Below are positions 20,960 to 62,658 of a stretch of 64,000 nt of DNA, piece after piece. Origin of the DNA: Candidatus Peregrinibacteria bacterium (lineage in GTDB: Bacteria; Patescibacteriota; Gracilibacteria; Peribacterales; Peribacteraceae); NCBI GenBank assembly GCA_018648865.1, contig JABGQH010000004.1, forward strand, positions 1 to 64,000. Reading direction: 5' to 3'. The position numbers and the translations under genes were made by a program. A model generated the notes under the pieces. It did not search any database. It saw only the letters and a list, made by a program, of their open reading frames with translations, and had not been told where the DNA came from. Numbering within the stretch: position 1 is the stretch's first letter; each line of letters begins with the position of its first letter.

Positions 20960-21041
20960 GGGTCAGTAGCTCCCACCTTCGCCCTTCCACCTTCGCCCTT
21001 CGGAACTACGGTGGACAAGTCGGGCTTCGGTCGGCAGGCAG
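20960..21041 (+). repeat. tRNA-Lys nt 1-13 duplicate fused to nested palindromic element
   Basis: GGGTCAGTAGCTC identical to nt 1-13 of tRNA-Lys (21098), then CCACCTTCGCCC[TTCCACCTTCGCCC...ACTACGGTGGACAAG]TCGGGCTTCGGTCGGCAGGCAG. Confidence 0.9.
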
Positions 21042-21097
21042 TGGTCCACTTCGCAAGATTAGTTCTTTAAATCATCTATAATTAAATTACCACACGT

Positions 21098-21172
21098 GGG
21101 TCAGTAGCTCAGTGGTAGAGCAGTTGGCTCTTAACCAATTGGCCGTGGGTTCAATCCCCACCTGACCCACCA
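21098..21172 (+). tRNA. tRNA-Lys(CTT)
   Basis: GGGTCAG...CTCTTAA...CTGACCCACCA; encoded CCA; TATAAT just upstream. Confidence 0.95.
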
Positions 21173-21214
21173 ATAATAAAATAAAAAAGTAATTTTAATC
21201 CTGTATGCCCCTTG

Positions 21215-21271
21215 CCCGTTCGTAGTTTCGGCGTAAGCCGAACGAAGACGGGTCCCCACCTGACCCACCAA
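21215..21271 (+). repeat. Hairpin element plus tRNA-Lys 3'-end duplicate
   Basis: cccgttcgtagtttcggcgtaagccgaacgaagacggg then TCCCCACCTGACCCACCAA, identical to 21155-21173. Confidence 0.88.
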
Positions 21272-21373
21272 AGAAGAACTATAAATTTAAATATATGAAA
21301 TACATTGTATTACATTGTCACACAAACTAAAAATATAAATTAATATACTACTAGACACAAATGCTTCTATGCA

Positions 21374-21412
21374 CCTTCTTCTCCAGACGGGAGAAGAAAG
21401 AGATGAGGGGGT
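21374..21412. repeat. CTTCTCC-GGGAGAAG...GATGAGGGGGT repeat
   Basis: Similar to 22720-22757. Confidence 0.6.
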
Positions 21413-21552
21413 AAACAGCTCAACTAAAAAAACTGATGTATTGCATTTGTATTACAACGTATTACGTTGTATTGCTTTTGTATTACATTGTCACACAAAA
21501 CTATAGATACATATATTTGACAGCCTTCTAAATATACTTATAAGATTAATTT

Positions 21553-21771
21553 ATGAATAATAATGAACCACAAAATGATAAGCCAGAAATAGATACACCA
21601 CCATCTGGTGATGAATTTACTTGTACAGAAGTAGACCCAGTAGAAGCTGTTCAAAGAGAAACAGATCCTAGCATGCGTTTTTTACTTGGAATGGCTGCTG
21701 CTGCAGGGAATGTTACTGTTGCTGAAATATCTTATAAGTCAGATGACACTTCTGAGGAACAAGATCAGTAA
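21553..21771 (+). CDS. Small hypothetical protein
   Basis: 72-aa acidic ORF. Confidence 0.5.
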   Translation: MNNNEPQNDKPEIDTPPSGDEFTCTEVDPVEAVQRETDPSMRFLLGMAAAAGNVTVAEISYKSDDTSEEQDQ

Positions 21772-21776
21772 TCACA

Positions 21777-22637
21777 TTACAACACTTTCCTAGCCCGTAC
21801 TTGCCTAGACCCATCTTTAAGTGGCATTAAAACTGCGACAGGAAGATCTTTGTGCCAAGCGAATGTTCCGTCTTTAACATCTTTTGTAATAGATCTACCG
21901 TGAGATATGTCTTCAAACTCCTCATCAGTTAGATCAATGCGAGCAAAGTCTTTTAATACTTCTTTTAAAGGGATAACGTTTCCCCAAGCGATGTTAGAAA
22001 CATCTTTTGAATCATCTATCGAATAATCCCCTACTCTAGTTCTACGTAATCCAGATAAATATCCTCCACAATGTAATAAGTGACCCATGTCATGAGCTAT
22101 GGATCTAATGTAAGTTCCGGAGCTGCAAGAAACATGTAACACGAGTTTTGGATACTCATAAGAAACAACTCTGCAATCATCTATTACAACTTCACGTTCT
22201 GGCATTTCTACTTTATTACCTTTTCTAGCCTCTGCGTAAGCACGTTTACCATTAACATGAACCGCACTATGTGCGGGAGGCGTTTGTTTAATTTTTCCAA
22301 TGAATCTTTCTTGAATCAATAATTGCACAGTGTGAATGCTTGGAATACTCCACCCTGGTTTAGATGGGATCTCTTCTATAACTCCTTCTCTATCATATGT
22401 AGTACTAACAGAGCCGAGTGTGATCTCTGCTTCGTAATCTTTTGTTAATCCGTTAAAGAATTCAATCACCTTAAGTGCCTTAGCACCTACAGCTAAAACT
22501 AGTAATCCAGTTGCAGCTGGATCTAGTGTGCCTAAATGCCCTACCTTTTTTTCGCTTAGAGCTTTGCGAACCAGATAAACAATATCGTGGCTTGTTTTGC
22601 CTACTCCCTTATCTACTAGCAAGAAACCGTGACGCAT
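21777..22637 (-). CDS. truB: tRNA pseudouridine(55) synthase TruB
   Basis: GFLLVDKGVGKTSHDIV, KVGHLGTLDPAATGLLVLAVG, SGTYIRSIAHDMG. Confidence 0.97.
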   Translation of the reverse strand: MRHGFLLVDKGVGKTSHDIVYLVRKALSEKKVGHLGTLDPAATGLLVLAVGAKALKVIEFFNGLTKDYEAEITLGSVSTTYDREGVIEEIPSKPGWSIPSIHTVQLLIQERFIGKIKQTPPAHSAVHVNGKRAYAEARKGNKVEMPEREVVIDDCRVVSYEYPKLVLHVSCSSGTYIRSIAHDMGHLLHCGGYLSGLRRTRVGDYSIDDSKDVSNIAWGNVIPLKEVLKDFARIDLTDEEFEDISHGRSITKDVKDGTFAWHKDLPVAVLMPLKDGSRQVRARKVL

Positions 22638-22642
22638 GGGTA

Positions 22643-22682
22643 TGTATTAAGTATTAGGTATTAAGTATTAAGTATTAAGTAT
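22643..22682. repeat. 7-bp tandem repeat (TATTAAG)n
   Basis: tattaagtattaggtattaagtattaagtattaagtat. Confidence 0.9.
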
Positions 22683-22719
22683 AGTTTTAGAATATCATTG
22701 ATTGAAAACTCTGTCTCGT

Positions 22720-22757
22720 TCCCCTCTCCCGACGGGAGAGGGTTAGGGTGAGGGGGT
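22720..22757. repeat. CCCCTCTCCC-GACGGGAGAGGGTTAGGGTGAGGGGGT element
   Basis: Inverted repeat plus GGGTTAGGGTGAGGGG tail. Confidence 0.75.
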
Positions 22758-22922
22758 CAATACAAATAAAGTAATAACTAACCATCTATAACTAAGTATA
22801 TAAGTAAGATACAAAAACACATTAATAATCTTTTATAAATACTAACAGACAATTCATTAAAACATTCGTAGTGGAAATTTAATCCGCAGAGATGTACGAT
22901 TCCATTAACCCTCTCTTAATAT

Positions 22923-23486
22923 ATGGCTATAACTCTTAGTTGGGATTTGTTTGTGATTGTATTCTTTGCCATCGTAATCACATACAGCCTTATCATCGGA
23001 AAGCACGAATCAGTAAAGATTGTAATATCTACATACATTGCAATTGTTGCTGCCCAAGGTATTGGTAACCTAGTAGAAAGACTATCCGCAGGATCTGTAC
23101 CATTTTTAGATATTGTAGGCATTTCTATGGATATCTCTTTATTATCTAGCACAAAGCTAGTTCTATTTATTCTTACGATAGTATTTTTAGCAGTTAGAGG
23201 AGGTTTTGATATTGAGTACAACAAAGAAACAGGAACAATTATAGACACCTTAATAACTGCGATGTTTGGTTTTGTAACAGCTGGATTAATGCTTTCTACA
23301 CTTATTACGTTTGTTGCAGATGTTCCATTGCTAGATAAAAGCATTGCACTAAAAGAACCGATCCAAGAGATGATGAAAAATAGCGATCTAATGAAAGCCA
23401 TGGTAGTCAATCAAGATATTTGGTTTGCATTACCAGCGCTAGTTCTTGTGGGAATTAGCTTTTTGAATACAGAGAATGATGAATAA
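22923..23486 (+). CDS. Hypothetical multi-pass membrane protein
   Basis: Four hydrophobic segments. Confidence 0.7.
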   Translation: MAITLSWDLFVIVFFAIVITYSLIIGKHESVKIVISTYIAIVAAQGIGNLVERLSAGSVPFLDIVGISMDISLLSSTKLVLFILTIVFLAVRGGFDIEYNKETGTIIDTLITAMFGFVTAGLMLSTLITFVADVPLLDKSIALKEPIQEMMKNSDLMKAMVVNQDIWFALPALVLVGISFLNTENDE

Positions 23487-23574
23487 GTTAACATTTATGA
23501 TTTTTGACAAGGGCTAGTTGACGCATCCTACAAAAATCTAGCTTGCAATACTATGTGTATATGAGTAACAATAG

Positions 23575-23943
23575 ATGAAATTCCCGACTCATTTTATGCG
23601 AAACTTCTTACAAAACTTATCTCTACGAACTTCCACTGCTATCGTAACTTTTGGTTACGCGATACAAGCAAAGGCAGATATCTTTGGTGACATTCCAGAT
23701 ATCGGTGGAGCCGATTCGGCTGATGTTAGAACATCAATAACAGATATTCTAAAAGAGATCCTAACTTATATGGCACTTGTTGCTGTGATCTTTATTGTAA
23801 TCGCTGGTATACGTTTAGTTGTCTCTCAAGGAGAAGATGCAGAAAAAGACAAAGCAAAGAAGACAATTACTTACGTAATTATTGGTCTAATCGTTATCCT
23901 ATTTGCAAGAGCGATTGTCTCAATCGTTGCAAACCTCGTGTAA
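23575..23943 (+). CDS. TrbC/VirB2-like pilin-type protein
   Basis: Signal-like N-terminus, two TM helices around GEDAEKDKAKKTITY. Confidence 0.65.
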   Translation: MKFPTHFMRNFLQNLSLRTSTAIVTFGYAIQAKADIFGDIPDIGGADSADVRTSITDILKEILTYMALVAVIFIVIAGIRLVVSQGEDAEKDKAKKTITYVIIGLIVILFARAIVSIVANLV

Positions 23944-23970
23944 TAAACACACTTAAAAAGAATTTATTAA

Positions 23971-23993
23971 AAACCCTTCACTTCGGAGGGTTT
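23971..23993. terminator. Bidirectional terminator
   Basis: aaacccttcacttcggagggttt flanked by A-run and T-run. Confidence 0.9.
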
Positions 23994-24542
23994 TTAAATA
24001 CTTACATCTGGGACCTTGGTTCTAGAGCAGAAAATGCTCTGCCCCTCTTCTTCTGCTAAAGATTTAGCTGAATCAATGTTCTTAACTAAAATCATTTTTG
24101 GTTTAATTTCTAAAATTGCAGATACAGGAATAGACACCATCCATTTATATAATTTTTTTGGAAACAACCACTGAACAATAAATGACTTTGTATCAAACTG
24201 AACATCTGCACATTTGCCCAGATACCTACCGGACTCAGAAACTATTCTCTGTTTTAAAACAGAACGACTATCCTTTAATATAGGTTGCAATCTAATAATA
24301 TCGTTAGGATCACATATCACATCTACGTCTCGGATAATAAAACGAGTACCAATATTCAATACATCAATTGATGAAACAAACTTCTCTCCTCCAAAGAAAA
24401 AGCCACTATTAACAAATATATAAAATCCCAAAATCTTGCCAGAATCAGGGTCTATAAGCATGTTTGATATTAGGCCAACTAACTTACCATTAGTCTCCTC
24501 TACAACCTCCATGCCTCTACAGGTAGAGAATCTCGTCTGCAT
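23994..24542 (-). CDS. PRC-barrel domain-like protein
   Basis: GKLVGLISNMLIDPDSGKILGFYI and a second repeat SGRYLGKCADVQFDTKSFIVQWLFP. Confidence 0.7.
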   Translation of the reverse strand: MQTRFSTCRGMEVVEETNGKLVGLISNMLIDPDSGKILGFYIFVNSGFFFGGEKFVSSIDVLNIGTRFIIRDVDVICDPNDIIRLQPILKDSRSVLKQRIVSESGRYLGKCADVQFDTKSFIVQWLFPKKLYKWMVSIPVSAILEIKPKMILVKNIDSAKSLAEEEGQSIFCSRTKVPDVSI

Positions 24543-24562
24543 ATGGTATCATTATACCGTAA

Positions 24563-25495
24563 ATGCTTTTATTTGCAGGATCATCTCACCCGGCATTAGC
24601 TAATTCTATAGCTAAAGAACTATCTACTGAATTAGGAGAAATAACTCTTAAGCAGTTTAGTTGTGGTGAACGCTATGTTAAATATGAAGAGTCTTTGAGA
24701 GGTAAAGACGTATACATCCTACAAACATCAACAAGAGAGCCAGACAAAGACTTAATGGAGCTATTTTTGCTTTGCCAAGCTGCAACACTAAGTTTTGCGA
24801 ACACAGTGCATGTAATAATGCCTCACTTCCCATATGCGCGTCAGGATCGTGTTGCACTACCTAGGGAACCAATCTCTTCTAAGTTAGTTGCTCATCTATT
24901 AGAAGAAGCAGGAGCAGACCATGTAATGACACTAGATCTACATTCCAGCCAGATACAAGGATTCTTTTCTATACCGGTAGACGCACTAACTGCATTAGAA
25001 ATTTTTGCTAAATATTTTATAGAAAAAAATATTGATGATGCTGTTGTAGTATCACCAGATGCAGGTGGAGCTAAAAGAGCTAAGAAGTTTGCAGATTTGA
25101 TAGGTGCAGATCTAGCAATTATTCATAAATCTAGACCTCAACATCAACAAGCAGAAGTAATTGAGTTAGTTGGAGACGTAAAAGACAGAACATGCATAAT
25201 CTTTGATGACATGATAGACACAGGAGGAACTCCACTAGCTGCAAAGAACGCTCTAGTAGCTCACGGAGCTAATCCAGATGTTTACGTAGCTGCTACACAT
25301 GGAATCTTTTCTGGAAAAGCAGAAGAGAACATGACAAAAGCTGGATTTAAAGAAGTAGTAGTAACAGACAGCATGCCAATGGATAGTATAAATATTTCTG
25401 GACTAAAGGTATTGGGAGTAGCACCAATGCTAGCAGAAGTAATTTATCACATAGAAAAAGGAGAAAGCGTTACAGAGATGTACAACAAGAAATAA
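24563..25495 (+). CDS. prs: Ribose-phosphate pyrophosphokinase
   Basis: MPHFPYARQDRV, VVSPDAGGAKRAKKFAD, CIIFDDMIDTGGTPLAA. Confidence 0.96.
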   Translation: MLLFAGSSHPALANSIAKELSTELGEITLKQFSCGERYVKYEESLRGKDVYILQTSTREPDKDLMELFLLCQAATLSFANTVHVIMPHFPYARQDRVALPREPISSKLVAHLLEEAGADHVMTLDLHSSQIQGFFSIPVDALTALEIFAKYFIEKNIDDAVVVSPDAGGAKRAKKFADLIGADLAIIHKSRPQHQQAEVIELVGDVKDRTCIIFDDMIDTGGTPLAAKNALVAHGANPDVYVAATHGIFSGKAEENMTKAGFKEVVVTDSMPMDSINISGLKVLGVAPMLAEVIYHIEKGESVTEMYNKK

Positions 25496-25586
25496 TACAA
25501 AGTAAATCATATACGGGGTAACGCAAGGTTGTGTGTAATTCTTTTTGGTATACTTTAGTTCGATTTATTTTAAACCCCTTCATTTT

Positions 25587-26201
25587 ATGAAAAAATTATT
25601 AACTACCTCTGTAGCCTTATCAGTTTTAATAGTTAGCGCTCCAGCACTTGCAGAAGGTACCGTAACATCTGTAACAGCAGTAGATGGAGAAGTCATTTCT
25701 ACAGAATGTACTAACCTAAGACGAACAGATCGTGCAGCTTGCATGCGTCTTAAAACTCAATCAGATGGATTAAAGAAAGGAATAGCAAAAAGATACATTC
25801 AAAGAAACAAAGGAGTCTTAAAGCAGGTACGTTACAACAGACGTTCAGATGATAAGGACGATAAGTTAACACTTAAAGAGCAAAGAATGAAAAATCTAGA
25901 AGAGAGAAAAGCGAATAGACTAAAAACTTTTCAGTCACATCAAAGTAGAATTGATCAAAAAAAGGAGTGGCAAAAAGAATTGCAAGAAAAGAGGCTTACA
26001 CAGCTCAGGGATCGTATAAAAGCTCTAACTCCATCGAATGTAATGACTAGAGAGGAATTCCGCACTCGTGCTCGCAAATTAGATGCTAATACTCAAAGTA
26101 GAAGAGAGACCGTAAAAAGAATTCATGAGGAGTGCAGATCACAGCGTGGAGCCGAAAGAATCGAATGTATGAGAAAAAAGACAGAAGATCAATTAGACTG
26201 A
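25587..26201 (+). CDS. Hypothetical secreted, highly basic protein
   Basis: MKKLLTTSVALSVLIVSAPALAEG signal peptide; Lys/Arg-rich helical remainder. Confidence 0.7.
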   Translation: MKKLLTTSVALSVLIVSAPALAEGTVTSVTAVDGEVISTECTNLRRTDRAACMRLKTQSDGLKKGIAKRYIQRNKGVLKQVRYNRRSDDKDDKLTLKEQRMKNLEERKANRLKTFQSHQSRIDQKKEWQKELQEKRLTQLRDRIKALTPSNVMTREEFRTRARKLDANTQSRRETVKRIHEECRSQRGAERIECMRKKTEDQLD

Positions 26202-26227
26202 AAATGAGAAATTACTTGAATCTAAAG

Positions 26228-26252
26228 GCGGAGAACCGTATGGTATCTCCGC
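26228..26252 (+). terminator. Rho-independent terminator
   Basis: gcggagaaccgtatggtatctccgc followed by ttttt. Confidence 0.9.
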
Positions 26253-26261
26253 TTTTTATAA

Positions 26262-26351
26262 GGGCGATTAGCTCCCACCTACGTCCCGCATTCGCGTGAC
26301 TTCGGTCGGCAGGCAGTTCCAGCCTTCGCAAAGACTACGGCTGACAAGTCC
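26262..26351 (+). repeat. tRNA-Ile nt 1-13 duplicate fused to palindromic elements
   Basis: GGGCGATTAGCTC identical to nt 1-13 of tRNA-Ile (26406); then CCACCTACG...CTTCGGTCGGCAGGCAG and CCAGCCTTCG...CTACGGCTGACAAG. Confidence 0.9.
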
Positions 26352-26405
26352 AACCTCGCATTGCGAATACATCGGAAACACAATCTCCTATATCATTCAC
26401 ATCAA

Positions 26406-26482
26406 GGGCGATTAGCTCAGTTGGTTAGAGCGCGACACTGATAATGTCGAGGTCGGAAGTTCAAGTCTTCCATCGCCCACCA
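26406..26482 (+). tRNA. tRNA-Ile(GAT)
   Basis: GGGCGAT...CTGATAA...ATCGCCCACCA. Confidence 0.95.
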
Positions 26483-26850
26483 TTCGACTCGGCACTACGT
26501 GCCTCGCTCATGGTAAACCATCTCGACTCGATCCTTTTTGTAAACCGAGTCGAATGACCCTGAGTGAGATTTTTGCGGAGCAAAATTGAATCGAAGGGCC
26601 ATTCCTAAATTATAAAACCATTAAACTCTCCAAAAAGTCGAATGATCCTTTAGTTTGAACTTGTTGAAAACTGAGTGAAACGCGTAGCGCTGAATCGAAG
26701 GACCTTTATCAATCTGTATTTTTTCAAAAGCATCCTACTCATGGTTCTCACCGCTTCGCGGTTCGAGCCATTTTGTAATGCCGAGGCGAATGACTCTGAG
26801 CGAACGAAACAAAGTGAAGTGAGTCGAAGAGCCCCTGCATGCACAGGACT
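26480..26850 (+). repeat. Cluster of degenerate hairpin repeats starting at the tRNA-Ile CCA end
   Basis: ACCATTCGACTCGGCACTACGTGCCTCGCTCATGGT, then GAGTCGAATGACCCTGAGTGAG..., repeated diverged GTCGAATGA/CTGAGYGA/GAATCGAAG modules. Confidence 0.75.
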
Positions 26851-26890
26851 CCGCGAAAAATTGAAATAGCTGCTTAAATATTAAAAGAAA

Positions 26891-26909
26891 GCCCGTGCGT
26901 AGCACGGGC
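26891..26909 (-). terminator. Terminator-like hairpin
   Basis: gcccgtgcgtagcacgggc; minus strand followed by TTTC TTTTA. Confidence 0.7.
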
Positions 26910-26919
26910 AATTACTTGT

Positions 26920-27147
26920 TTAGGTGTTTCGTCGCAACTTTCGTACTTGTACTACAGTTGCAACAACGAGCGAGATTACCCCGCATGAGATGGTAAGAAC
27001 ATACATTCCAGCTGAATGAATTGTGTTTGCGACGATGTCAAACATACACAATCCAGAACCGAATGCGATTCCTAATATCCCAGATACCGTGATTACCATA
27101 ACGGGATCAAATAGAGATACTTTCTTCTTAGTCATAGAATCCTCCAC
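26920..27147 (-). CDS. Small hypothetical membrane protein
   Basis: 75 aa with two TM segments. Confidence 0.6.
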   Translation of the reverse strand: MEDSMTKKKVSLFDPVMVITVSGILGIAFGSGLCMFDIVANTIHSAGMYVLTISCGVISLVVATVVQVRKLRRNT

Positions 27148-27282
27148 CTAGGTTTAAAAAAGAGCAAAACAAGCAAAAGGAATATAGGCATTTTTTGCTA
27201 TATAACAACAAAAACCATAACAATAATTGACAAAAACATCCCAGAAGCATAGATTCCCTCCCCTATTTATAACTATTTAACT

Positions 27283-28080
27283 ATGAGTAAAGAACTTCAA
27301 ACAGGAGGCTTTGGACCAGAATTATTACAGCACAAACCAATATTCCGTACTGTTTTTGCAAAACTCTGGGGGAAAGGAATGCTAAATGAAATAATATGGA
27401 CCAGTAAAGATCCAAAACATTGCTGGAACGAATTATGTAGTGATCCTGAGCAAATGAAATATTTTACAGAAGTAGCTATTGAAGCAATCGAAGAAGGAAG
27501 ATTTTCTTTTGAAGAAGATTTTCAAATAATTGAAGGGTCAGAAGGTGCTAGGCTAAATAAAGAAAATATTGATACTGCAGTTTTTGGCATAAATAGAGTG
27601 GCAATAAAGCAAATATCAGATGTATTAAACGGACAAGTACTAGTTAATTATCATAGAGGAGTTGTGTGGGAATCGAGTTCTGAAGCAGGTAAGTACAATA
27701 GAGTAAGCATAACTGAGCTCTGCGAAGGTAATAACAACTGGAGAATGCAATTAATTATTGATAAGCCTGGTATAAGGGAAACATTTCCAATTTTAATAGC
27801 AAATGTAAGTGAGGAAAAACTTGCAGAAGCATTTAATGGACAAGACGACCCTTGGACGCATGATGAAAACGAAGGGTGGATAGGCGGTGAAGAAGTAGCC
27901 AAAGAACCTAATGCTGTATACATATTTACCAGAACCATTACATTAAAAAGGAATGATGGAGGCAATGTAACAATCACATGGAATGGTAAGCATACGAATC
28001 CAGAATCCGAGTACTTTTCCAATCCAGATGAAAAGAAAGGGTTCAGAGTAGAAGATACGTTAGAAACTAAGGTTTCTTAA
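27283..28080 (+). CDS. Hypothetical protein
   Basis: Intact 265-aa ORF. Confidence 0.65.
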   Translation: MSKELQTGGFGPELLQHKPIFRTVFAKLWGKGMLNEIIWTSKDPKHCWNELCSDPEQMKYFTEVAIEAIEEGRFSFEEDFQIIEGSEGARLNKENIDTAVFGINRVAIKQISDVLNGQVLVNYHRGVVWESSSEAGKYNRVSITELCEGNNNWRMQLIIDKPGIRETFPILIANVSEEKLAEAFNGQDDPWTHDENEGWIGGEEVAKEPNAVYIFTRTITLKRNDGGNVTITWNGKHTNPESEYFSNPDEKKGFRVEDTLETKVS

Positions 28081-28241
28081 GTTATAACCAATCAATTAAC
28101 AGAAATGTCTATCTATGAGGTTTTTGGCTTATTTTAGCCGTTTAATATACCCCCCACCCTATATTGGATTTGACAATAAAGAATTTTTCACTAGAATGCG
28201 TTAAATTCTGCTCTGTAACAACATCAATAAGGAGTTTTTAA

Positions 28242-28517
28242 ATGGCGACGATGCAAAAGGCTAAGAAGGAATCGGCACTCGTAATATCATTACGAGCAAT
28301 GTTTGAAAGTAATAATTCTAATGAGAGGCAAGGAGCTCTCTCCAGAACGGCGGGATTACTTAATAGGTACTCATCCCACGCCGAGAACACAAGAATTCTA
28401 GTAGGCCTAGTCTGGTGCTACGAAGAAGACTTTACTCAAGAGGAAATTGAAAAACATTTCCAAAAGCATCTTACGTTCTATGCAAAAAGGGCAATCGAAA
28501 ACGTCAAAAAATCATAA
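28242..28517 (+). CDS. Small hypothetical protein
   Basis: SD-like aaggag upstream; terminator immediately downstream. Confidence 0.65.
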   Translation: MATMQKAKKESALVISLRAMFESNNSNERQGALSRTAGLLNRYSSHAENTRILVGLVWCYEEDFTQEEIEKHFQKHLTFYAKRAIENVKKS

Positions 28518-28538
28518 ATGGTGTACAGAGCAGAAATA

Positions 28539-28561
28539 GCTGTCGTGACTTTCACGGCAGC
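28539..28561 (+). terminator. Rho-independent terminator
   Basis: gctgtcgtgactttcacggcagc followed by ttttttat. Confidence 0.88.
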
Positions 28562-28570
28562 TTTTTTATA

Positions 28571-34490: not shown

Positions 34491-34534
34491 GTATTTAGGA
34501 TACGGGAATAAGAATAGTTTAGAAAGGCAAAGGT

Positions 34535-34710
34535 CCAACCTTCGCCGCTTACGCGGACTACGGTTGGCAGGCAAAGGTCGAAAGTCTTACTCAAAACCCC
34601 AACCTTCGCCGCTTACGCGGACTACGGTTGGCAGGCAAAGGTCGAAAGTCTTACTCAAAACCCCAACCTTCGCCGCTTACGCGGACTACGGTTGGCAGGC
34701 AAAGGTCGAA
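34535..34710. repeat. Three tandem copies of a 64-bp palindromic repeat
   Basis: ccaaccttcgccgcttacgcggactacggttggcaggcaaaggtcgaaag... starting at 34535, 34599 and 34663. Confidence 0.95.
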
Positions 34711-36549: not shown

Positions 36550-36617
36550 GCGCGCCTGCCTGCCGGCAGGCAAGCCTGCCTACCGAAGGTAGGTCTACCG
36601 ATTCCGCCACTCCGGCA
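36550..36617 (-). repeat. tRNA-Leu 5'-end duplicate fused to palindromic element
   Basis: Minus strand TGCCGGAGTGGCGGAATCGGTAGAC identical to the tRNA-Leu 5' end, then CTACCTTCGGTAGGCAGGCTTGCCTGCCGGCAGGCAGGCGCGC. Confidence 0.9.
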
Positions 36618-36877
36618 TTTATAGATAAGATTTGATACAAAGAACAATAATTGAGGTATTCATCCGCCGTAGTTTCTGCAGAGCAGAACGAAGGTGGACC
36701 GCCACTCTTGTCGAGCCGAAGCTCATTAGAGCGAAGGCTGACCGGCATTTATAGATAAGATTTGATACAAAGAACAATAATTGAGGTATTCATCCGTCGT
36801 AGTTTCTGCAGAGCAGAACGAAGGCGGGCCGCCACTCTTGTCGAGCCGAAGCTCGTTAGAGCGAAGGCTGACCGGCA
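36612..36877 (-). repeat. Two tandem 130-bp units containing split tRNA-Leu 5' fragments
   Basis: Units start at 36612 and 36742; minus strand GCCGG[TCAGCCTTCGCTCTAA...CTCGACAA]GAGTGGCGG followed by TCCACCTTCGTTCTGC...CTACGGCGGATG. Confidence 0.88.
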
Positions 36878-41311: not shown

Positions 41312-41393
41312 GCCACGGTAGCTCCCACCTACGCCTTTCCACCTTCGCCCTTCGGGTCTATGGTGGACAAGTCGGACTACGGTGGACAGGCAG
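41312..41393 (+). repeat. tRNA-Met nt 1-13 duplicate fused to nested palindromic element
   Basis: GCCACGGTAGCTC identical to nt 1-13 of the tRNA at 41422; then CCACCTACGCC[TTTCCACCTTCGCCC...CTATGGTGGACAAG]TCGGACTACGGTGGACAGGCAG. Confidence 0.9.
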
Positions 41394-41421
41394 TTGGTAA
41401 AATAGTGTTCATTGTGAATAT

Positions 41422-41498
41422 GCCACGGTAGCTCAGTTGGTTAGAGCGCGGGACTCATAAGCCCGAGGTCGACAGTTCAATTCTGTCCCGTGGCACCA
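41422..41498 (+). tRNA. tRNA-Met(CAT) (elongator, or Ile2 with CAT anticodon)
   Basis: GCCACGG...CTCATAA...CCGTGGCACCA. Confidence 0.92.
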
Positions 41499-52069: not shown

Positions 52070-52129
52070 CCTTAAGCATAAGAAAGAAATTGAATAAAAG
52101 GGCTTTTTCTGCTATAATTACTGGATTAT

Positions 52130-54382: not shown

Positions 54383-54386
54383 ATGC

Positions 54387-55373
54387 TTATTTTGGAACTG
54401 ATGGGTTATTAGAATCTACGACTTTCCAACGAACCTCTGGTTGAAGTGATCCTGGTAAAGAAAATCCAGCAGCTTTGCGATGTCCACCTCCTTGAAATTT
54501 ACCTGCCATTTTAGCAACATCTATATCGTCACGTAATGTGCGCAGGGATCCCTTTACTATGTCTCCGCGCTCAGATAGTAGAAGAGAGAACTTCATGCCT
54601 GGTACGGCGTTTATATAGTCAATAGCTCCAGTTAACTCGCTATGGTGTGCGCCAGTCGCACGGAAATCTCCTTTAGTTACAGCAGATATTGCTCCACCCT
54701 CTGAAGTTAGATTTATCTTTTCTAAAACTCTACCCCACAACTTTAATGTACTTAGCTTCGCAGTACGGAATACATGGGTAACTATTTGTTGCTGCCTCGC
54801 GCCTACTCTAAGTAGCCGAGCGACTGTTCTATAAACTTTTGATGTTGTGTTGCTATGAAGCAATCCTCCTGTATCTGTATAAACACCTGTTAATAAACAA
54901 GTAGCAATATCACTATCCATTTCCCAAGACAAATCATCAGCAAGTTGAACAACAATTTCACAAGTGGAAGCAGCATCAGGAAGAATAAAATTAACAGTCC
55001 CAAAATTTGGATTACCCTGATGATGGTCTATACAAATTGAGTTGTGAGTTCCATCAAATAATTCTGGAATATTTTTATCCATTGCTGTTTGCCCAGGTGC
55101 AGCACAATCCAAAAATACAATTACATCACCTTCTTTAAGTTTTGGTTCACGTTGTATGCTGTGCACTCTTGGCAAAAAATGCATAGTGTCTGGAGCAGGA
55201 TCGACGCAATGCATACTTATCTGCTTATTTGGATAAGCTTTCTCTAGTAAAAGACCCATGCCAAGGATTGATCCGATAGCATCTCCGTCTGGGTTTTTAT
55301 GACAAATGCAGAGAATTCTATCTGCAGAAGAGAAGAATTTACTGGCGGTTGATACATCTGTTTTTTGCAACAT
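54387..55373 (-). CDS. DHH/DHHA1 phosphoesterase (NrnA-like)
   Basis: CHKNPDGDAIGSILGM, CIDHHQGN, GVYTDTGGLLHSNTT, GGGHRKAAGF. Confidence 0.95.
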   Translation of the reverse strand: MLQKTDVSTASKFFSSADRILCICHKNPDGDAIGSILGMGLLLEKAYPNKQISMHCVDPAPDTMHFLPRVHSIQREPKLKEGDVIVFLDCAAPGQTAMDKNIPELFDGTHNSICIDHHQGNPNFGTVNFILPDAASTCEIVVQLADDLSWEMDSDIATCLLTGVYTDTGGLLHSNTTSKVYRTVARLLRVGARQQQIVTHVFRTAKLSTLKLWGRVLEKINLTSEGGAISAVTKGDFRATGAHHSELTGAIDYINAVPGMKFSLLLSERGDIVKGSLRTLRDDIDVAKMAGKFQGGGHRKAAGFSLPGSLQPEVRWKVVDSNNPSVPK

Positions 55374-55479
55374 AAGGGATCAATTGTACGAAACAAAAAA
55401 CAAACATGGAACCCTCTGCCCTTGCAGTAAACCTAAATCTTTATGCTTACACTAAAGTGTGAGGAATCTATGTCACGAA

Positions 55480-55788
55480 TCATCTCAATAACTCATCTAT
55501 TCTATTGCCGCGTTCAGTACGTTCATCTGCCTTAAATCTAAGGGCTGGAACTCTAGAACGATTGATTGCTCCAACTTGCCTTTGCAAAAATGGAATACGT
55601 TTCTTTAAATACTTAATTGCAACCTCAGTTTCTTTAAACGAACTAATATATATAGTTGCATGAGAGAAATCATCAGATACATCTACTTCTGTCATAGAAA
55701 CTATTCCACATTCTTGTGGACATTCTCGTAAGACAGGAGAAATTATGTCTCTTATAACCGATGCTAGCATTTTTGGTCGCTTAGACAT
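55480..55788 (-). CDS. rbfA: Ribosome-binding factor A
   Basis: SVIRDIISPVLRECP...VSMTEVDVSDDFSHATIYIS...PALRFKADERTERGNRIDELL. Confidence 0.92.
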   Translation of the reverse strand: MSKRPKMLASVIRDIISPVLRECPQECGIVSMTEVDVSDDFSHATIYISSFKETEVAIKYLKKRIPFLQRQVGAINRSRVPALRFKADERTERGNRIDELLR

Positions 55789-55889
55789 GTACTAAGCATA
55801 GGAGAGCAGATGAATAATTACCAAGAAAATATAGTATTTACTCTATCATTCGACTGAAATTGAAATAGGTACTAATATTCAAACTACAA

Positions 55890-56759
55890 ATGGCCAATTC
55901 ATTCTCTGTAATATTCGCAGGCACTCCAGACTTTGCAGTCCCATCTTTAAGAGCTTTAGTAGAAAGTGATTCATTTAATGTAATTAAAGTCATAACACAG
56001 CCAGATAAGCCAATTGGCAGAAAGCAAATCATTACACCCCCCGCAATAAAAATAGAAGCTAAGAAATATGGCCTACCAATATGGCAACCAATAAATATTA
56101 ATAAGGAATGGGAAGAGGTAGATGAGCCTTTTGATTTTTTTGTAACAGTTGCATTTGGGCAATTGCTAAGCCAAGAAATTCTAGACTCGCCGAGAATAGA
56201 AGCTGTTAATTTACATGGGTCACTTTTACCAAAATGGCGTGGTGCTTCACCAATGCAATCTGCATTGCTTTCAGGTGACAAAGTTACAGGAGTAACTTTG
56301 CAAAAAATGGTAAAACAAATTGATGCAGGAGACACCCTCTCTACCAAAGAACATGCAATGAAAGAAAGAGAAACACTTGAGTCCCTACATGATTCACTAG
56401 CGATAAAAGGTGCTGCATTGCTCGTTGAAACATTACAAAAGACTCTCAATCCAATGCCCCAAGATGAATCACAAGCAACACATTGCAGTAAGCTAGCAAG
56501 AGAGGATGGCAATGTTGATGCATCTAATATGACAGCAGAGGAAATTGATCGTAAAGTTCGTGCCCTTGTTCCATGGCCAGGTGTTACAACTAAATTTGAA
56601 AACCAAACAATTAAATTACTAGAAACATCATTAGAAGAATGTGATGAATCTTTGCCGATCACCTGCGCGAATAACTCAATTCTTTATATTAAAAGATTAG
56701 TCCCAGCAGGAGGAAAACAAATGACAGGCGCAGCATGGGGAAGAGGAAACAAAGGCTAA
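55890..56759 (+). CDS. fmt: Methionyl-tRNA formyltransferase
   Basis: IFAGTPDFAVPSLRAL, NLHGSLLPKWRGASPMQSALLSGD, VTLQKMVKQIDAGD. Confidence 0.97.
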   Translation: MANSFSVIFAGTPDFAVPSLRALVESDSFNVIKVITQPDKPIGRKQIITPPAIKIEAKKYGLPIWQPININKEWEEVDEPFDFFVTVAFGQLLSQEILDSPRIEAVNLHGSLLPKWRGASPMQSALLSGDKVTGVTLQKMVKQIDAGDTLSTKEHAMKERETLESLHDSLAIKGAALLVETLQKTLNPMPQDESQATHCSKLAREDGNVDASNMTAEEIDRKVRALVPWPGVTTKFENQTIKLLETSLEECDESLPITCANNSILYIKRLVPAGGKQMTGAAWGRGNKG

Positions 56760-56853
56760 GAAGTAAGTATTAAGTAAGAAAAATGAAAACAGGGAACCTT
56801 AATACATAATTCTTGATACATAATACTAATCAGTTGCTGCTAAACTAATTCTA

Positions 56854-58110
56854 ATGAAATTACTACTATCCCTTCTATTTATAGGTTTGGTAACTGCAGC
56901 TAGCCCCAACTTAGATACAGATGGAGATGGTTTGCTAAATACAGAGGAGGATAGGAACAGTAATAACATGATGGATATAGGTGAAACAGATCCACTAAAT
57001 GCAGATACAGACGATGGAGGAGAAGCAGATGGAAGCGAACTTTCTGCAGGTAGAAATCCACTAGATCCAACTGATGATTATACCTATGACCTAGATGGTG
57101 ATGGGCTTTCTAATGGAGAAGAGCTACAGATAGGAACTAATCCAGATAATCCAGATTCAGATGATGATGGGATAAAAGATGACGCTGATCCATTTCCTCT
57201 GGATAGAATGTACAAAGAAGACAAAGACATAGATGGAATTCCAGATGAATATGAAGAAGAGAATGGCCTCTCCTCTCAAAATAAAGATGATGCAATGGAA
57301 GACAATGACAATGATGGGATCTCTAATCGTGATGAGTTTATTATCGGAATTGATCCAAATGATCCAGATTCAGACGAAGATGGGATAGATGATGGGACAG
57401 AAGTTGAGGAAGGTACAGACCCAGAAGAAAACCCATGTCTAGCATATGGAGGAGGCAGCTCACACTTCGCAGATTTAGAAGACCACTGGAGCAGAAATTA
57501 TGTAATACATCTACATCAAACAAAGATTATTAATGAAGGCAAAAGAATAATATCTGGCTACACAGAAGGTGACCTTACATTGTTTCTACCAGATAGACCT
57601 ATCTCTCGTTTTGAACTTTTAAAGATCGCATTACTATCTGGATGTACTAAAATCAATGAAGATACGGAACTTAGTTCCTTCAGCTTCACAGATATCCCAC
57701 CAACTAGTAGGCCAAGGGAATCAGAGGACAGAATAGAAAGAAGAAGTATTGTTTATACCGCAGCAGATAGAGGAATAGTAGAAGGATATGAAGATGGTAC
57801 GTTTAGACCAAACGACAGTGTAAACAGAGCAGAAGCATTAAAAATACTATTACTAGCGTCTCAACCAGAGTTACTTAATGAACCATACAGAGACTTACCT
57901 GACTTTGCAGATGTAACAAATGAAGATTGGTTTGCACCTTTCGTAAAGATCGCAAATTCATACGGACTAACATCTGGGTTTGAAAACAATATGTTTAAAC
58001 CCGAACTACCAATAACCAGAGCAGAAGCCAGTAAAATAGTTCTGCTCCTAATGGCAACCAATCCAAAGGTGAATGGATATATAATCCCAACAGATAATTT
58101 AGAAGATTAA
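56854..58110 (+). CDS. Secreted protein with thrombospondin type-3-like calcium repeats and SLH-like domains
   Basis: DTDGDGLLNTEED, DLDGDGLSNGEELQIGTNPDNPDSDDDGIKD; GIVEGYEDGTFRPNDSVNRAEALKILL. Confidence 0.9.
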   Translation: MKLLLSLLFIGLVTAASPNLDTDGDGLLNTEEDRNSNNMMDIGETDPLNADTDDGGEADGSELSAGRNPLDPTDDYTYDLDGDGLSNGEELQIGTNPDNPDSDDDGIKDDADPFPLDRMYKEDKDIDGIPDEYEEENGLSSQNKDDAMEDNDNDGISNRDEFIIGIDPNDPDSDEDGIDDGTEVEEGTDPEENPCLAYGGGSSHFADLEDHWSRNYVIHLHQTKIINEGKRIISGYTEGDLTLFLPDRPISRFELLKIALLSGCTKINEDTELSSFSFTDIPPTSRPRESEDRIERRSIVYTAADRGIVEGYEDGTFRPNDSVNRAEALKILLLASQPELLNEPYRDLPDFADVTNEDWFAPFVKIANSYGLTSGFENNMFKPELPITRAEASKIVLLLMATNPKVNGYIIPTDNLED

Positions 58111-58114
58111 AAAA

Positions 58115-58137
58115 AGAGCCGCCATTCAGGCGACTCT
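58115..58137. terminator. Terminator-like hairpin
   Basis: agagccgccattcaggcgactct between convergent genes, A-run upstream. Confidence 0.65.
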
Positions 58138-58159
58138 CTTAAATATTTTAAACTTGAGA

Positions 58160-58471
58160 CTAAACGAATTCTCTCATGCTTTCAAAAGCTTTAATGAATT
58201 CTTCTAGGTCTTCTGAATCAAACATGATTGTAGTTTTTTGACCTCCTCGTGATTTTTCAGAAACCTTAAAGAATTTACCATGACCAGACTCCTTTAAATC
58301 TATATAAAATGTACGCTGACGTGCATGGATAGTTACAGAACTTAGTTCCTGTGCAAACTTACCATTTCCGCCTCCGCTTTGGCTTTGTGCTGCAGGCTTA
58401 TCATCCTGCTCTACTGGTGCGCTTTCGTTACTTGTACTCTCATCAGAGAGTTCTGACATTGGATCAAACAT
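58160..58471 (-). CDS. PUR-alpha-like (DUF3276) nucleic-acid-binding protein
   Basis: KRTF-like core: ARQRTFYIDLKESGHGKFFKVSEKSRGGQKTTIMFDSEDLEEF. Confidence 0.85.
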   Translation of the reverse strand: MFDPMSELSDESTSNESAPVEQDDKPAAQSQSGGGNGKFAQELSSVTIHARQRTFYIDLKESGHGKFFKVSEKSRGGQKTTIMFDSEDLEEFIKAFESMREFV

Positions 58472-58601
58472 ATTAATATGTGGAAAAAAATATTGTGGCT
58501 CCCTTTCCTCTTTCCCTCAGCAATTCGCCTCGGTCTTGAAGTCCCGCATCCCTTTTGAAATAACGGGATAAGAGCACATTTAGCGTATCATACTTATTTT
58601 A

Positions 58602-60143
58602 TTACTCAAGCGGAGCGAAGAGTATTTCTGGCTCCCCTATTTTTGTCCAATCCTTGCATCCGCCCCATTCTTTCATCTCCTGAGTTATAACAAAATCCTT
58701 ACTTAACATTTCCTTTGCATATGGAACATTTAACTGCCTAGAAATGCGATATGCAGTGTCTGGGACTATAGGCAAAAGCATTAGTGAAATATGGCGGAGC
58801 ATTTCTGCTATCGCACTCAATACTTCAATTTTTTCTTCTCCAGAGAGTGTCCAAGGCTTCTTTTCATCCATTCTAAGATTACCATCTTCTACCAAGGCAA
58901 CAGGATGATTTGTGATTGAAGTTGAAACTTCAAAAGAATCCATTTGATTTAAATATGAATCCCAATGATTAACAATTTCTGAACTAAGTGGATCACTATC
59001 TGAAATAATTAATTCACAGTCCTCTTTCTTTAAAAGAACCAGAACTCTATTAAGTAAATTACCTAATTTATTCCTAAGGATTGAATCATAAAGTTTTGTG
59101 AATCTCTCCCAAGAGAAATCACCATCACGTCCTACTGGTACCTCATGACTTAAATAAAATCTAAGAGGATCTGGATTACCATCAAACTTTTTAAGTACGT
59201 CATCTGGAACCACTACATTACCAAGCGACTTACTCATCTTCTCTCCTTCGCTTGTTAAGAATCCATGGATCAATAGCTCGTCTGGAATACGTATATCTGC
59301 CTTTTTAAGCATAAGAGGCCATATAAGCGCATGGAAACGTGCAATGTCTTTACCTATTACATGCGTTACCTTTGCGTCGTCCCACCATTCGCGTTCCTCG
59401 TGATCTGTTAGAAAACCCAGTCCAGAGATATAGTTTGTAAGAGCGTCACACCAAACATACATAACTTGGTCTGAATCATTTGGAACAGGAATCCCCCACT
59501 GCAAACTAGAAACAGAGCGAGAGAAAGAGACATCTTCTAAGCCTTGTTCGATTAATGAAAGGGTTTCTTTTTCTCTAAAACTTGGAACGATTCTGTACTG
59601 CTCTTTGTCCCATTCCTTTGTGAGCAGATCTCCTAAGTCTTTTGTGTACTCACTCATCTTTAAAAACCAGTTCTCCTCTGTTACCTCCTCTGGTTCTACC
59701 TGATGATTAGGACACTTACCTTCTACTAAGTCTCTTTTTCCCATAAACCTTTCGCACCCACTGCAATAAAAACCTGTATATGACCTCTTTTCCAATGCTC
59801 CTGATTTTTCTAATCGTTTCCAGAGCTCAGTAACAGTTGGATAGTGTTCTTTTTCATCGGATGTTCTAACAAATTTATCATGAGATATATTTAATCTCTC
59901 ATAAAGATCGGTAAACAAAAGAACGTTTCTATCTACCAATTCCCTTGGAGTCATACCTTCTTTTTCTGCTGTACGTTGTATTTTTATACCATGCTCGTCT
60001 GTACCTATCTGAAAACGTACGTCGTCTCCTCTTAACCTAAACCATCTAGCTATTACATCTGCTAGCACCTTTTCTAGTACATGTCCCATATGTGGAGCTG
60101 CGTTTGGATAATCGATTGCTGTTGTTATGTATCTGCGATTCAT
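58602..60143 (-). CDS. metG: Methionyl-tRNA synthetase
   Basis: TTAIDYPNAAPHMGHVLEKVLADVIARWFR, GFLTSEGEKMSKSLGNVV; start at MNRRYITT. Confidence 0.97.
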   Translation of the reverse strand: MNRRYITTAIDYPNAAPHMGHVLEKVLADVIARWFRLRGDDVRFQIGTDEHGIKIQRTAEKEGMTPRELVDRNVLLFTDLYERLNISHDKFVRTSDEKEHYPTVTELWKRLEKSGALEKRSYTGFYCSGCERFMGKRDLVEGKCPNHQVEPEEVTEENWFLKMSEYTKDLGDLLTKEWDKEQYRIVPSFREKETLSLIEQGLEDVSFSRSVSSLQWGIPVPNDSDQVMYVWCDALTNYISGLGFLTDHEEREWWDDAKVTHVIGKDIARFHALIWPLMLKKADIRIPDELLIHGFLTSEGEKMSKSLGNVVVPDDVLKKFDGNPDPLRFYLSHEVPVGRDGDFSWERFTKLYDSILRNKLGNLLNRVLVLLKKEDCELIISDSDPLSSEIVNHWDSYLNQMDSFEVSTSITNHPVALVEDGNLRMDEKKPWTLSGEEKIEVLSAIAEMLRHISLMLLPIVPDTAYRISRQLNVPYAKEMLSKDFVITQEMKEWGGCKDWTKIGEPEILFAPLE

Positions 60144-60227
60144 GGCAAAAGAGTAACGCAAAGACAATAATAAATATAGCAAAGCAAAAACAAATCTACT
60201 TATAACTTTTAAGGATCTATCTAAATA

Positions 60228-60575
60228 TTAAAAACTAATTAAACCGAAGAAATTTGATGTAAATGTAATAATTGCCTGAGACATCAAAGCAAGTACAACT
60301 CCAATTAGAGCATACTGAACTGTCTTTTTTGCATTGTCTTTTACTTCTTCATTACCTCCAGAGGCTGCCATACGAATTCCACTCCACATTATTGCAAGTA
60401 TTGCTCCACCTGTAATAAGCATTAGGAAAAAATTCGCACCTCTAATTGCTACGTCTACAACAAAATATTTTCCACTGCCTGATCCTCCAAACGTAGTGTA
60501 ATAATCACGCCATACACCCTGTGCATAAGCAGATGGAACAATTATCGAACTAAGAATAGTAATTATGGAAGTCAT
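60228..60575 (-). CDS. TrbC/VirB2-like pilin-type membrane protein
   Basis: Signal-like N-terminus; GSGRY-type two-TM layout around SGGNEEVKDNAKKTVQYA. Confidence 0.65.
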   Translation of the reverse strand: MTSIITILSSIIVPSAYAQGVWRDYYTTFGGSGSGKYFVVDVAIRGANFFLMLITGGAILAIMWSGIRMAASGGNEEVKDNAKKTVQYALIGVVLALMSQAIITFTSNFFGLISF

Positions 60576-60576
60576 T

Positions 60577-61194
60577 TTAAAATCCTGCGGTAAGAATTAT
60601 ATGTACCAAAGCTCTAGCAATATTTACTAATGCTGCCCCAATAACTGCATGCTTTAGGGTGCTTCTGGAGCTTGTAATATCCTCTTGTTTACCATGGTTA
60701 ATTACCATGCGTGTTCCTGCTACTACAATAATCGCTACAAAGACTGCATTAAACACATTTAGCATTGTATCTACACCGACTCTCATAACAGCTAAGGCAG
60801 GATTATCAACGGCAGTAGCCAAGCCACCTGCATATGCGCTGCTTAATACAAAAGAAACAATGGCCTGAGAACCCAAAGCAAGTGCAAACCCACCAAGGGC
60901 ATAATAAACTGAATGCTTTCCTTTGGTTATCATGCCGTCATTACCGAATCCTAGTATTAACTGAAAACCTCCTACAACTATGAACAGCACAGATAATCCC
61001 GCTGCAACAGATACAAATACCGATGCGGTATTTTGAATAAGAATACCAATGAGCTCTTGTCCATTTGTACTACACCCACCAATCCTGCCACATGGATCTA
61101 CTCCTGGAGTTGGTGGAGCAGCAAAAGCTACTGATGGAACAGTTACTAATGCAAAAGTAATAATTGAGCCAAATGATCTAGGTATTAATTTCAT
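60577..61194 (-). CDS. TrbC/VirB2-like membrane protein
   Basis: Signal peptide; ILGFGNDGMITKGKHSVYYALGGFALALGSQAIVSF. Confidence 0.6.
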   Translation of the reverse strand: MKLIPRSFGSIITFALVTVPSVAFAAPPTPGVDPCGRIGGCSTNGQELIGILIQNTASVFVSVAAGLSVLFIVVGGFQLILGFGNDGMITKGKHSVYYALGGFALALGSQAIVSFVLSSAYAGGLATAVDNPALAVMRVGVDTMLNVFNAVFVAIIVVAGTRMVINHGKQEDITSSRSTLKHAVIGAALVNIARALVHIILTAGF

Positions 61195-61620
61195 CTATCT
61201 AATAAAGAATAATGAATTAAGAGTACGTAGAATTACTCCAGAGAATAGCAAAATAAGAAGCCCTACTACGGACCAAATTATTCTAGAAATCGCTGCGCTT
61301 CGTCTACTTTGGTTATTTCCAGAAGTCATAAACATCACTCCTCCGATAAGTATCCAAAGCACTGTAAACCCGACAGCTACACGAAATAGCCAAAATCGAG
61401 ACATATTGAAGTAATCAATAAATATAGTCGGGCTAGATGCCAAACTAGCAGTACTGTCATCCAAAGGCTGTATTAAGCCAACTGAACCATTAGTCTGCTG
61501 CGCGGATACTGTAGAAACCCATGTAAGAAGGGTTGCACAAAGTGCAATAGCCCAAGGAGTTTTTGTATTTTTTTGTCTATACATCTTAATATCATAGCAG
61601 ATTTGGCCACTTTTCGCCAC
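61195..61620 (-). CDS. TrbC/VirB2-like membrane protein
   Basis: Signal peptide; IGGVMFMTSGNNQSRRSAAISRIIWSVVGLLILLFSGVIL. Confidence 0.6.
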   Translation of the reverse strand: MAKSGQICYDIKMYRQKNTKTPWAIALCATLLTWVSTVSAQQTNGSVGLIQPLDDSTASLASSPTIFIDYFNMSRFWLFRVAVGFTVLWILIGGVMFMTSGNNQSRRSAAISRIIWSVVGLLILLFSGVILRTLNSLFFIR

Positions 61621-61740
61621 TGTTTAGGGTTAAGTTATTCATATTCGATACACATCAGTAACTCTTCTGCAAAATGATAAATAATCAGTACTGCTCAATA
61701 TTTTACGCTCAGGTTTAAAAATGTTACTTTTTACAGTGTT

Positions 61741-62367
61741 ATGAAACCAAATTTAAGAGAATTGGCATTTATTTTAATTATTGGTAGCCTGCAGCCAATA
61801 GTAGAACTTATAACTAACTCCCAAATTTCTACTTACTACAATGGATCTGCGATATTTATCGCAGTGATATACGTAATATATCGTATCTTAAAATCAAAAA
61901 AAATAATTCTAATCGAGTGGGGGTTTCGATTAGATAATATTAAGAAATGCTTACTTCCATATTTTATCTCTGCTGTTATTGGTAGTACTGCAATATATTG
62001 TTATGGATGGTATTTTGGTAATACTCCACTGCCAATAGGATTTTGGTATGTGATTATTCTATATCCTATTTGGGGTATCATGCAGCAGTTTGCATTACAG
62101 AATTTTGTTGCTAGGAATCTAACAAATCTGGTTCCATCCTTACCTTTAAGATCTTTAGTTACTGCAATATTATTCGCATGTGCACATATCCCATCTATTG
62201 AATTAGTATTACTTACATTTATTGTTGGCTTCATTTTTACGTATATATATCATTACTATTCGAATCTATTATTACTTGGTTTTGCTCATGGAATACTGGG
62301 GGCGCTAGTTTTTCATTTAGTACTTAATCAAAATCAATGGGATATTTTATTGAAATACTTTTCATAA
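61741..62367 (+). CDS. CPBP-family intramembrane protease-like protein (QQ variant)
   Basis: WGIMQQFALQNFVARNL, FACAHIPSIELVLLTFIVGFIFTYIYHYYSNLLLLGFAHGILG. Confidence 0.75.
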   Translation: MKPNLRELAFILIIGSLQPIVELITNSQISTYYNGSAIFIAVIYVIYRILKSKKIILIEWGFRLDNIKKCLLPYFISAVIGSTAIYCYGWYFGNTPLPIGFWYVIILYPIWGIMQQFALQNFVARNLTNLVPSLPLRSLVTAILFACAHIPSIELVLLTFIVGFIFTYIYHYYSNLLLLGFAHGILGALVFHLVLNQNQWDILLKYFS

Positions 62368-62451
62368 AAAGTTTGATTTAAAATAACTTTCGATCACTCG
62401 CTTGCAAAATAGGTAGAAGATTCGTAGGATTCCTTTGCCTTATATACTTAT

Positions 62452-62538
62452 GCGGACGTAGCTCCCGCCTTCGTCCCGCTCCCCACCTTCGCCCTTCGGG
62501 TCTACTGTGGGCAAGACGCGGGAACTCCGGTGGACAGG
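62452..62538 (+). repeat. tRNA-Gly(GCC) nt 1-13 duplicate fused to nested palindromic element
   Basis: GCGGACGTAGCTC identical to nt 1-13 of the tRNA at 62582; then CCGCCTTCGTCCCGC[TCCCCACCTTCGCCC...CTACTGTGGGCAAG]ACGCGGGAACTCCGGTGGACAGG. Confidence 0.9.
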
Positions 62539-62581
62539 TTATTCTCGTAAGTATATCCAAGCATTTACTCTTAATTCCTTT

Positions 62582-62658
62582 GCGGACGTAGCTCAGTTGG
62601 CTAGAGCGTCGCCTTGCCATGGCGAAGGTCGCGAGTTCGAATCTCGTCGTCCGCTCCA
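62582..62658 (+). tRNA. tRNA-Gly(GCC)
   Basis: GCGGACG...TTGCCAT...CGTCCGCTCCA. Confidence 0.95.

Follow-up and report, generated by a model that had tools for sequence, protein, structure and literature searches.

At the tyrT/rtT locus of Escherichia coli, a tRNA gene is followed by tandem repeats that contain the 3' end of the tRNA. Copies of tRNA 3' ends also lie downstream of tRNA genes in the DNA considered here, the 64,000 nucleotides at positions 1 to 64,000 of contig JABGQH010000004.1 (forward strand; hereafter the window) from a Candidatus Peregrinibacteria bacterium (assembly GCA_018648865.1). However, tyrT/rtT is confined to one locus and to 3' ends, whereas here many tRNAs are affected, copies of their 5' ends lie upstream as well, and nuclease genes are linked to the arrangement. 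Like REP/RAYT elements and the Rickettsia palindromic elements, the inserts in these copies are short palindromes in or near genes, but no Y1 transposase was found in the genome of the window, several unrelated palindrome types occur, and the palindromes cluster in redundant copies of tRNAs. Split and permuted tRNA genes also encode tRNA halves apart; in contrast to split tRNAs, the fragment adjoins an intact gene for its tRNA in the loci examined, so that trans-splicing is not needed. According to one report, SegB of T-even phages, a free-standing GIY-YIG enzyme, cuts inside tRNA genes, and in phage T6 it drives segmental tRNA amplification (PMC13096335). As with SegB, the GIY-YIG nuclease genes described below adjoin tRNA genes, but they are chromosomal genes of Patescibacteria, occur at many different tRNAs, and encode single-domain putative nucleases of ~80-100 amino acids; moreover, the redundant tRNA copy is here truncated or filled with palindromes.

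We call a copy of a tRNA 5' end a head and a copy of a tRNA 3' end a tail. In the genome of the window (G000; 1.13 Mb, 43 tRNAs), at least 16 tRNAs have a head on the same strand, 50-300 nucleotides (nt) upstream, that repeats the first 8-24 nt of the tRNA exactly and is broken by a palindrome; about zero would be expected by chance. Broken copies are thereby carried by about one third of the tRNA genes in a 1.1-Mb genome, and they are widespread in Peribacteria. The best-supported reading, somewhat more probable than not, is that these fragments are footprints of tRNA-targeting, free-standing homing elements with a SegB-like GIY-YIG endonuclease that would cut within tRNA genes. Phages already provide examples of homing at tRNA genes; what appears to be new is the cellular setting, the scale, the head/tail signature, and the palindrome-crippled copies, and no description of this architecture or of a GIY-YIG-tRNA linkage in Patescibacteria was found in the literature.

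GIY-YIG genes at tRNA loci

In two genomes, G020 and G022, the small open reading frames (ORFs) between a tRNA and its tail encode GIY-YIG proteins (PF01541, E-values 2e-8 to 8e-19). A census of four whole genomes, with tRNA adjacency taken from coordinates, yielded 28 GIY-YIG genes, including one long ORF per genome (776-830 amino acids) that was presumed by its length to be UvrC and was left out. Eighteen of the 24 small genes lie within 600 nt of a tRNA, compared with ~1.2 expected (P ~1e-19); fourteen are downstream on the same strand, three upstream on the same strand, and one is on the opposite strand. At nine loci, but not in the remaining tRNA-adjacent cases, the gene sits between the intact tRNA and a broken copy, in the order tRNA-GIY-YIG-tail (L400, L402, L408, L396, and L183) or head-GIY-YIG-tRNA (L404, L407, L410, and L189). 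This exact placement, as well as the strong tRNA linkage, is left unexplained by a nuclease-free scenario in which structured tRNA genes undergo slippage during replication, or are partly duplicated in tandem, and the copies then receive palindromes and decay. We regard this scenario as unlikely, although the window, having no nuclease gene, would fit it.

At L407 identical leaders precede the head and the intact tRNA, and the head carries the palindrome CCTGCCTGCCGGCAGGCAGG at nt 23^24, the point at which the palindrome resides in the gene-less Leu heads of the genome of the window. The GIY-YIG reading frame extends into tRNA sequence at L189, L410, L183, and L400. In L183, the two copies differ in the T arm: that of the crippled copy is shared with the genome of the window, G018, and more distant genomes, whereas that of the intact copy is less common, as if, at this one locus, the intact copy had arrived with the GIY-YIG gene. 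Residues Y5, Y16, G18, R26, H30, and E62 are invariant in 13 GIY-YIG proteins encoded at the relatives' loci and elsewhere in the genome of the window. As in GIY-YIG homing elements, the active-site residues are intact, the gene is located at the proposed target, and copies of the target flank it at the nine loci.

A separate arrangement was seen at Val-TAC of G012 (L088/L137), where two inverted Val-TAC genes are each preceded by two head units, and a GIY-YIG ORF is found ~430 nt away.

Frequency, polarity, and anatomy of the copies

The four 13-nt copies of tRNA starts described in an earlier note on this DNA (tRNA-Lys, tRNA-Ile, tRNA-Met, and tRNA-Gly-GCC) are all present where it had placed them, each with the intact tRNA 110-144 nt downstream on the same strand (Table 1). 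Fragments of this kind are not confined to these four tRNAs: genome-wide, an exact copy of nt 1-12 was found within 330 nt upstream of 15 of the 43 tRNAs, whereas 0.05 would be expected when the starts of other tRNAs are sought in the identical upstream DNA. Decaying intermediates are few in this genome.

The polarity of the copies is strict. Among 11-nt matches around 238 tRNAs of six genomes, heads were found upstream in 37 cases and downstream in none, tails downstream in 19 cases and upstream in none, and antisense copies were absent. Slippage would give such polarity by geometry, as duplications at the 5' border leave the truncated copy upstream and those at the 3' border leave it downstream. 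The downstream tails also look like attR remnants, which would fit attachment sites left behind by tyrosine-integrase elements in tRNA genes. However, the heads are 5' ends, which tyrosine integrases rarely use, and the inserts mostly measure just 40-140 nt, so that this origin is barely credible.

Exact heads occur at 11 of 44 tRNAs in G022, at 3 of 43 in G028, and at 6 of 30 in G001, a member of the same genus as the genome of the window that has some decayed heads besides. In G020 the head is shorter (8-9 nt) and the D stem is replaced by a hairpin, and in G051, from another family of the same class, no heads were found. A search of 84,980 species genomes for the head followed by the palindrome returned 35 loci, nearly all in Patescibacteria and mostly in Peribacteria, and at most of them an intact tRNA that starts alike follows closely downstream. 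The trait is spread across Peribacteria and sporadic in other Patescibacteria, and both hairpin type and breakpoint are variable. A phage reservoir was considered and dismissed, the motif being absent from 2.9 million viral contigs. One contig labelled Kiritimatiellales (L138, JAIPIN010000003.1) contains two palindrome-bearing Thr heads, an intact tRNA-Thr, and a downstream GIY-YIG gene; its binning outside Patescibacteria could reflect horizontal transfer or mis-binning.

Beyond the palindrome, the same tRNA resumes at Lys, Ile, and Met of the window (CAGTGGT, CAGTT, and CAGTTGGT, respectively), which the earlier note overlooked. The best position for the insert is therefore nt 12^13 of a second copy; the match to tRNA nt 13 is ambiguous because the element starts with C or T. 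Resumption was recognized in 56 of 102 heads, in 32 of them at nt 13. Thus the proposed fusion at nt 13 does correspond to a favored point, nt 12^13, but this point lies inside the second 5' copy, not at its end. Nor is it general, since breakpoints differ by tRNA class and genome over the range of nt 5-35; other insert points are nt 5^6 (Leu), 7^8, 14^15 (Ser), 19^20, 23^24 (Leu), and the anticodon loop. The copies end mostly at nt 19-24 and some at nt 26-35, and nearly full-length crippled copies were found for Val in L377, Thr in L144, His in L404, and Ile in L183. To judge by this anatomy, the fragments represent a second copy of the tRNA that is incomplete or crippled. The range of breakpoints, the unrelated hairpin types, and the nearly full-length crippled copies give no support to a target duplication of fixed length at nt 13.

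Amplification of a unit composed of leader, head, and hairpin, as also suggested earlier, is seen in arrays of near-identical units at Leu-CAA, Leu-GAG, and Lys-TTT. At tRNA-Leu-CAA of the window, three heads stand in tandem on the minus strand (starts at 36876, 36746, and 36616). Slippage accounts for such tandem arrays, and also for locus L149 (Buchananbacteria), whose tandem tRNA-Ala 5' halves are mostly palindrome-free, the palindrome being present in the first half only.

The palindromes with the consensus YCCRCCTWCG...GGYGGRCARG form a recognizable family that occupies the favored site nt 12^13 in many genomes. A regular-expression scan of 343 kb found eight matches within 350 nt upstream of a tRNA and four elsewhere, of which one is Leu unit 1 and three belong to one tandem array. 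A recognizable family at a favored site, together with a few copies elsewhere, could suggest a non-autonomous REP/RAYT- or MITE-like palindrome that inserts at nt 12^13 and duplicates a long stretch of the target. Such an element is nevertheless highly improbable: the target duplication would have to span from 8 to >24 nt, hairpins of other types fill the same role in G020 and G022, and non-tRNA copies are rare in the 343 kb. The linked RAYT/Y1 gene that the earlier note proposed to seek was not found in the genome of the window (no match to PF01797, with control genomes positive); the nuclease that accompanies the architecture is of the GIY-YIG type.

Some palindromes reside away from tRNAs. 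Three tandem copies of the family (CCAACCTTCGCCGCTTACGCGGACTACGGTTGGCAGG) with a 64-nt period and no adjoining tRNA are located at 34534-34710 of the window, upstream of a minus-strand thioredoxin-reductase-like ORF. Rare intergenic palindromes distant from detected tRNAs were also noted elsewhere in the genome (L084, C8:7985-8050; L085, C11:17333-17363; L086, C4:17288-17305), and those of L084 and L085 are found near other repeat-like stretches such as ctccctctcccgaggggagaggg. Finally, at Ile-GAT in L176 (G022), L180 (G006), and L187 (G011), the head hairpin is followed by a second hairpin that is partly antisense to the D and anticodon arms of the tRNA and whose A-run, taken on the other strand, would look like an intrinsic terminator.

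Leaders, exactness of the heads, and the proposed mechanism

Upstream of the heads, -10-like hexamers are enriched at the spacing of real tRNAs, and positions -1 to -4 show the same base preferences as real tRNA leaders. In two comparisons made by eye, of Gly-GCC (G001 without the unit and G000 with it) and of Val-TAC (G076 without the unit and G061 with it), the single leader resembles the leader that precedes the head. This suggests an ancestral promoter upstream of the head, as though an insertion had hit the tRNA start and the tRNA had been restored. To this extent the idea of an insertion that restores the tRNA fits the relatives lacking the unit.

The heads are exact to a degree that their surroundings are not. 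In 83 of 97 cases, selected for an exact match over nt 1-8, the leader before the head is unrelated to that before the tRNA despite identity over nt 1-8 or more. Among 59 heads chosen by the element alone, 48 have no mismatch in nt 1-7. Homologous Leu units at three loci have palindromes at two identical points and a shared GAATACCTCAAT tail, and yet each carries nt 1-7 of its own host; moreover, homologous Leu and Ser units carry nt 1-14 of their own hosts. Taken together, own-host starts in homologous units and exact heads beside diverged leaders indicate that heads are either re-copied from their own tRNA or selected to match it. Slippage leaves the exact heads next to diverged leaders unexplained.

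A further reading is that the heads are functional, with promoter, tRNA 5' end, and hairpin giving a structured 5' RNA or an additional promoter module controlling the tRNA. The promoter-like hexamers and tRNA-like bases at -1 to -4, the exactness of nt 1-7 beside mostly diverged leaders, and the host-specific starts of the Leu and Ser units speak for such a function. We consider it rather improbable, given that the presence of heads varies between two species of one genus, that the hairpin types are unrelated, that decayed heads exist, and that the mismatches show no clear tendency to keep the head paired with the tRNA 3' strand; pairing of the head and of the native acceptor strand is near iso-energetic and not informative.

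Several further ideas were abandoned. Pairing of the head with the tRNA 3' strand was favored by three energy models, but equally so with shuffled spacers, and the energies in the four window cases, which differ by 0.4-5 kcal/mol, are not informative. The complementarity of nt 1-8 to the tail of the same unit showed no excess over the tails of other units, the spacer has no similarity to the tRNA trailer, and wobble-preserving mismatches in heads were too few to judge. A loss of RNase P, with leaderless tRNAs, does not apply, as RNase P RNA is present.

Returning to homing elements, we suggest the following course of events. A GIY-YIG endonuclease encoded beside a tRNA would cut the tRNA gene, and repair of the break would duplicate the tRNA locally, with one copy left intact. 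The palindromes, which sit in the D arm or the anticodon loop of the redundant copy, would inactivate it and perhaps also remove the cut site, and slippage or recombination between the direct repeats could add or delete units. The endonuclease gene would often be lost, and we take the gene-less units, among them all those of the window, for decayed or non-autonomous ones. A bolder version can be put forward tentatively: widespread tRNA-parasitic elements of Patescibacteria, in which a minimal GIY-YIG nuclease with a replacement tRNA would split the resident tRNA, palindromes would silence the latter, and palindrome-only units could be non-autonomous and immunizing.

A number of observations weigh against homing. 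A profile search of the window ORFs found no GIY-YIG gene, so that the window loci lack the nuclease gene expected of a homing element and their assignment rests on the anatomy shared with gene-bearing loci. In the whole genome, GIY-YIG genes are near two head loci only (Val-TAC and Arg-TCG), and the heads do not follow the GIY-YIG genes from one locus to the next. The outgroup G051, with one GIY-YIG gene beside a tRNA, has no heads. The proteins match UPF0213-type structures and lack the additional DNA-binding domain that known homing endonucleases usually have. Finally, both the exact heads beside mostly diverged leaders and the host-tracking of the homologous Leu and Ser units require conversion or selection in addition.

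If homing is the correct explanation, minimal nucleases would have their battleground in essential tRNA genes across a large branch of bacteria, most of them uncultured, and some small GIY-YIG proteins of Patescibacteria would gain a role. It would also account for the survival of a host whose essential tRNAs are the target of a selfish gene. In any case, tRNA-like fragments beside tRNAs can mislead annotation.

Coordinates and minor observations

The features of the window are listed in Table 1.

Table 1. Heads, inserts, tails, and intact tRNAs located in the window
Feature	Position	Strand	Basis or remark
tRNA-Lys-CTT head, nt 1-12(13)	20960..20972	+	exact match; 138 nt upstream of intact tRNA, same strand
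Lys palindromic insert, nested hairpin CCACCTTCG...GGTCGGCAGG	20972..21038	+	boundary set by tRNA resumption at nt 13
Lys copy resumption, nt 13-19, CAGTGGT	21039..21045	+	sequence
Intact tRNA-Lys-CTT	21098..21172	+	ARAGORN, Rfam
tRNA-Lys tail, nt 58-75 including CCA, hairpin in front	21253..21270	+	sequence match
tRNA-Ile-GAT head, nt 1-12(13)	26262..26274	+	sequence match
Ile palindromic insert, then CAGTT (nt 13-17), then second palindrome to ~26347	26274..26313	+	sequence
Intact tRNA-Ile-GAT	26406..26482	+	ARAGORN
Leu-CAA unit 1: GCCGG / palindrome / AGTGGCGG / palindrome / GAATACCTCAAT...	36747..36876	-	sequence
Leu-CAA unit 2, architecture as unit 1	36617..36746	-	sequence
Leu-CAA unit 3: head (nt 1-24), followed by palindrome and nt 24-29	36593..36616	-	sequence
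Intact tRNA-Leu-CAA	36409..36493	-	ARAGORN
tRNA-Met head, nt 1-12(13)	41312..41324	+	sequence match
Met palindromic insert	41324..41390	+	sequence
Met copy resumption, nt 13-20, CAGTTGGT	41391..41398	+	sequence
Intact tRNA-Met	41422..41498	+	ARAGORN
tRNA-Gly-GCC head, nt 1-12(13)	62452..62464	+	sequence match
Gly-GCC palindromic insert, tRNA resumption not recognizable	62464..62538	+	sequence
Intact tRNA-Gly-GCC	62582..62658	+	ARAGORN
tRNA-Gly-CCC tail, nt 56-74, hairpin in front	63373..63391	+	sequence match

Two further observations concern tRNA 3' ends. A 12-nt copy of the tRNA-Val-GAC 3' end at 6372-6383 (minus strand), ~3.4 kb downstream of the tRNA, may be due to chance. Many tRNA 3' ends run directly into a trailer of the form TTCGACTCG-hairpin-CTCATGGT (window 26483-26520; also L079, L076, L061, and L060), and the end of this recurrent hairpin is complementary to the encoded ACCA.

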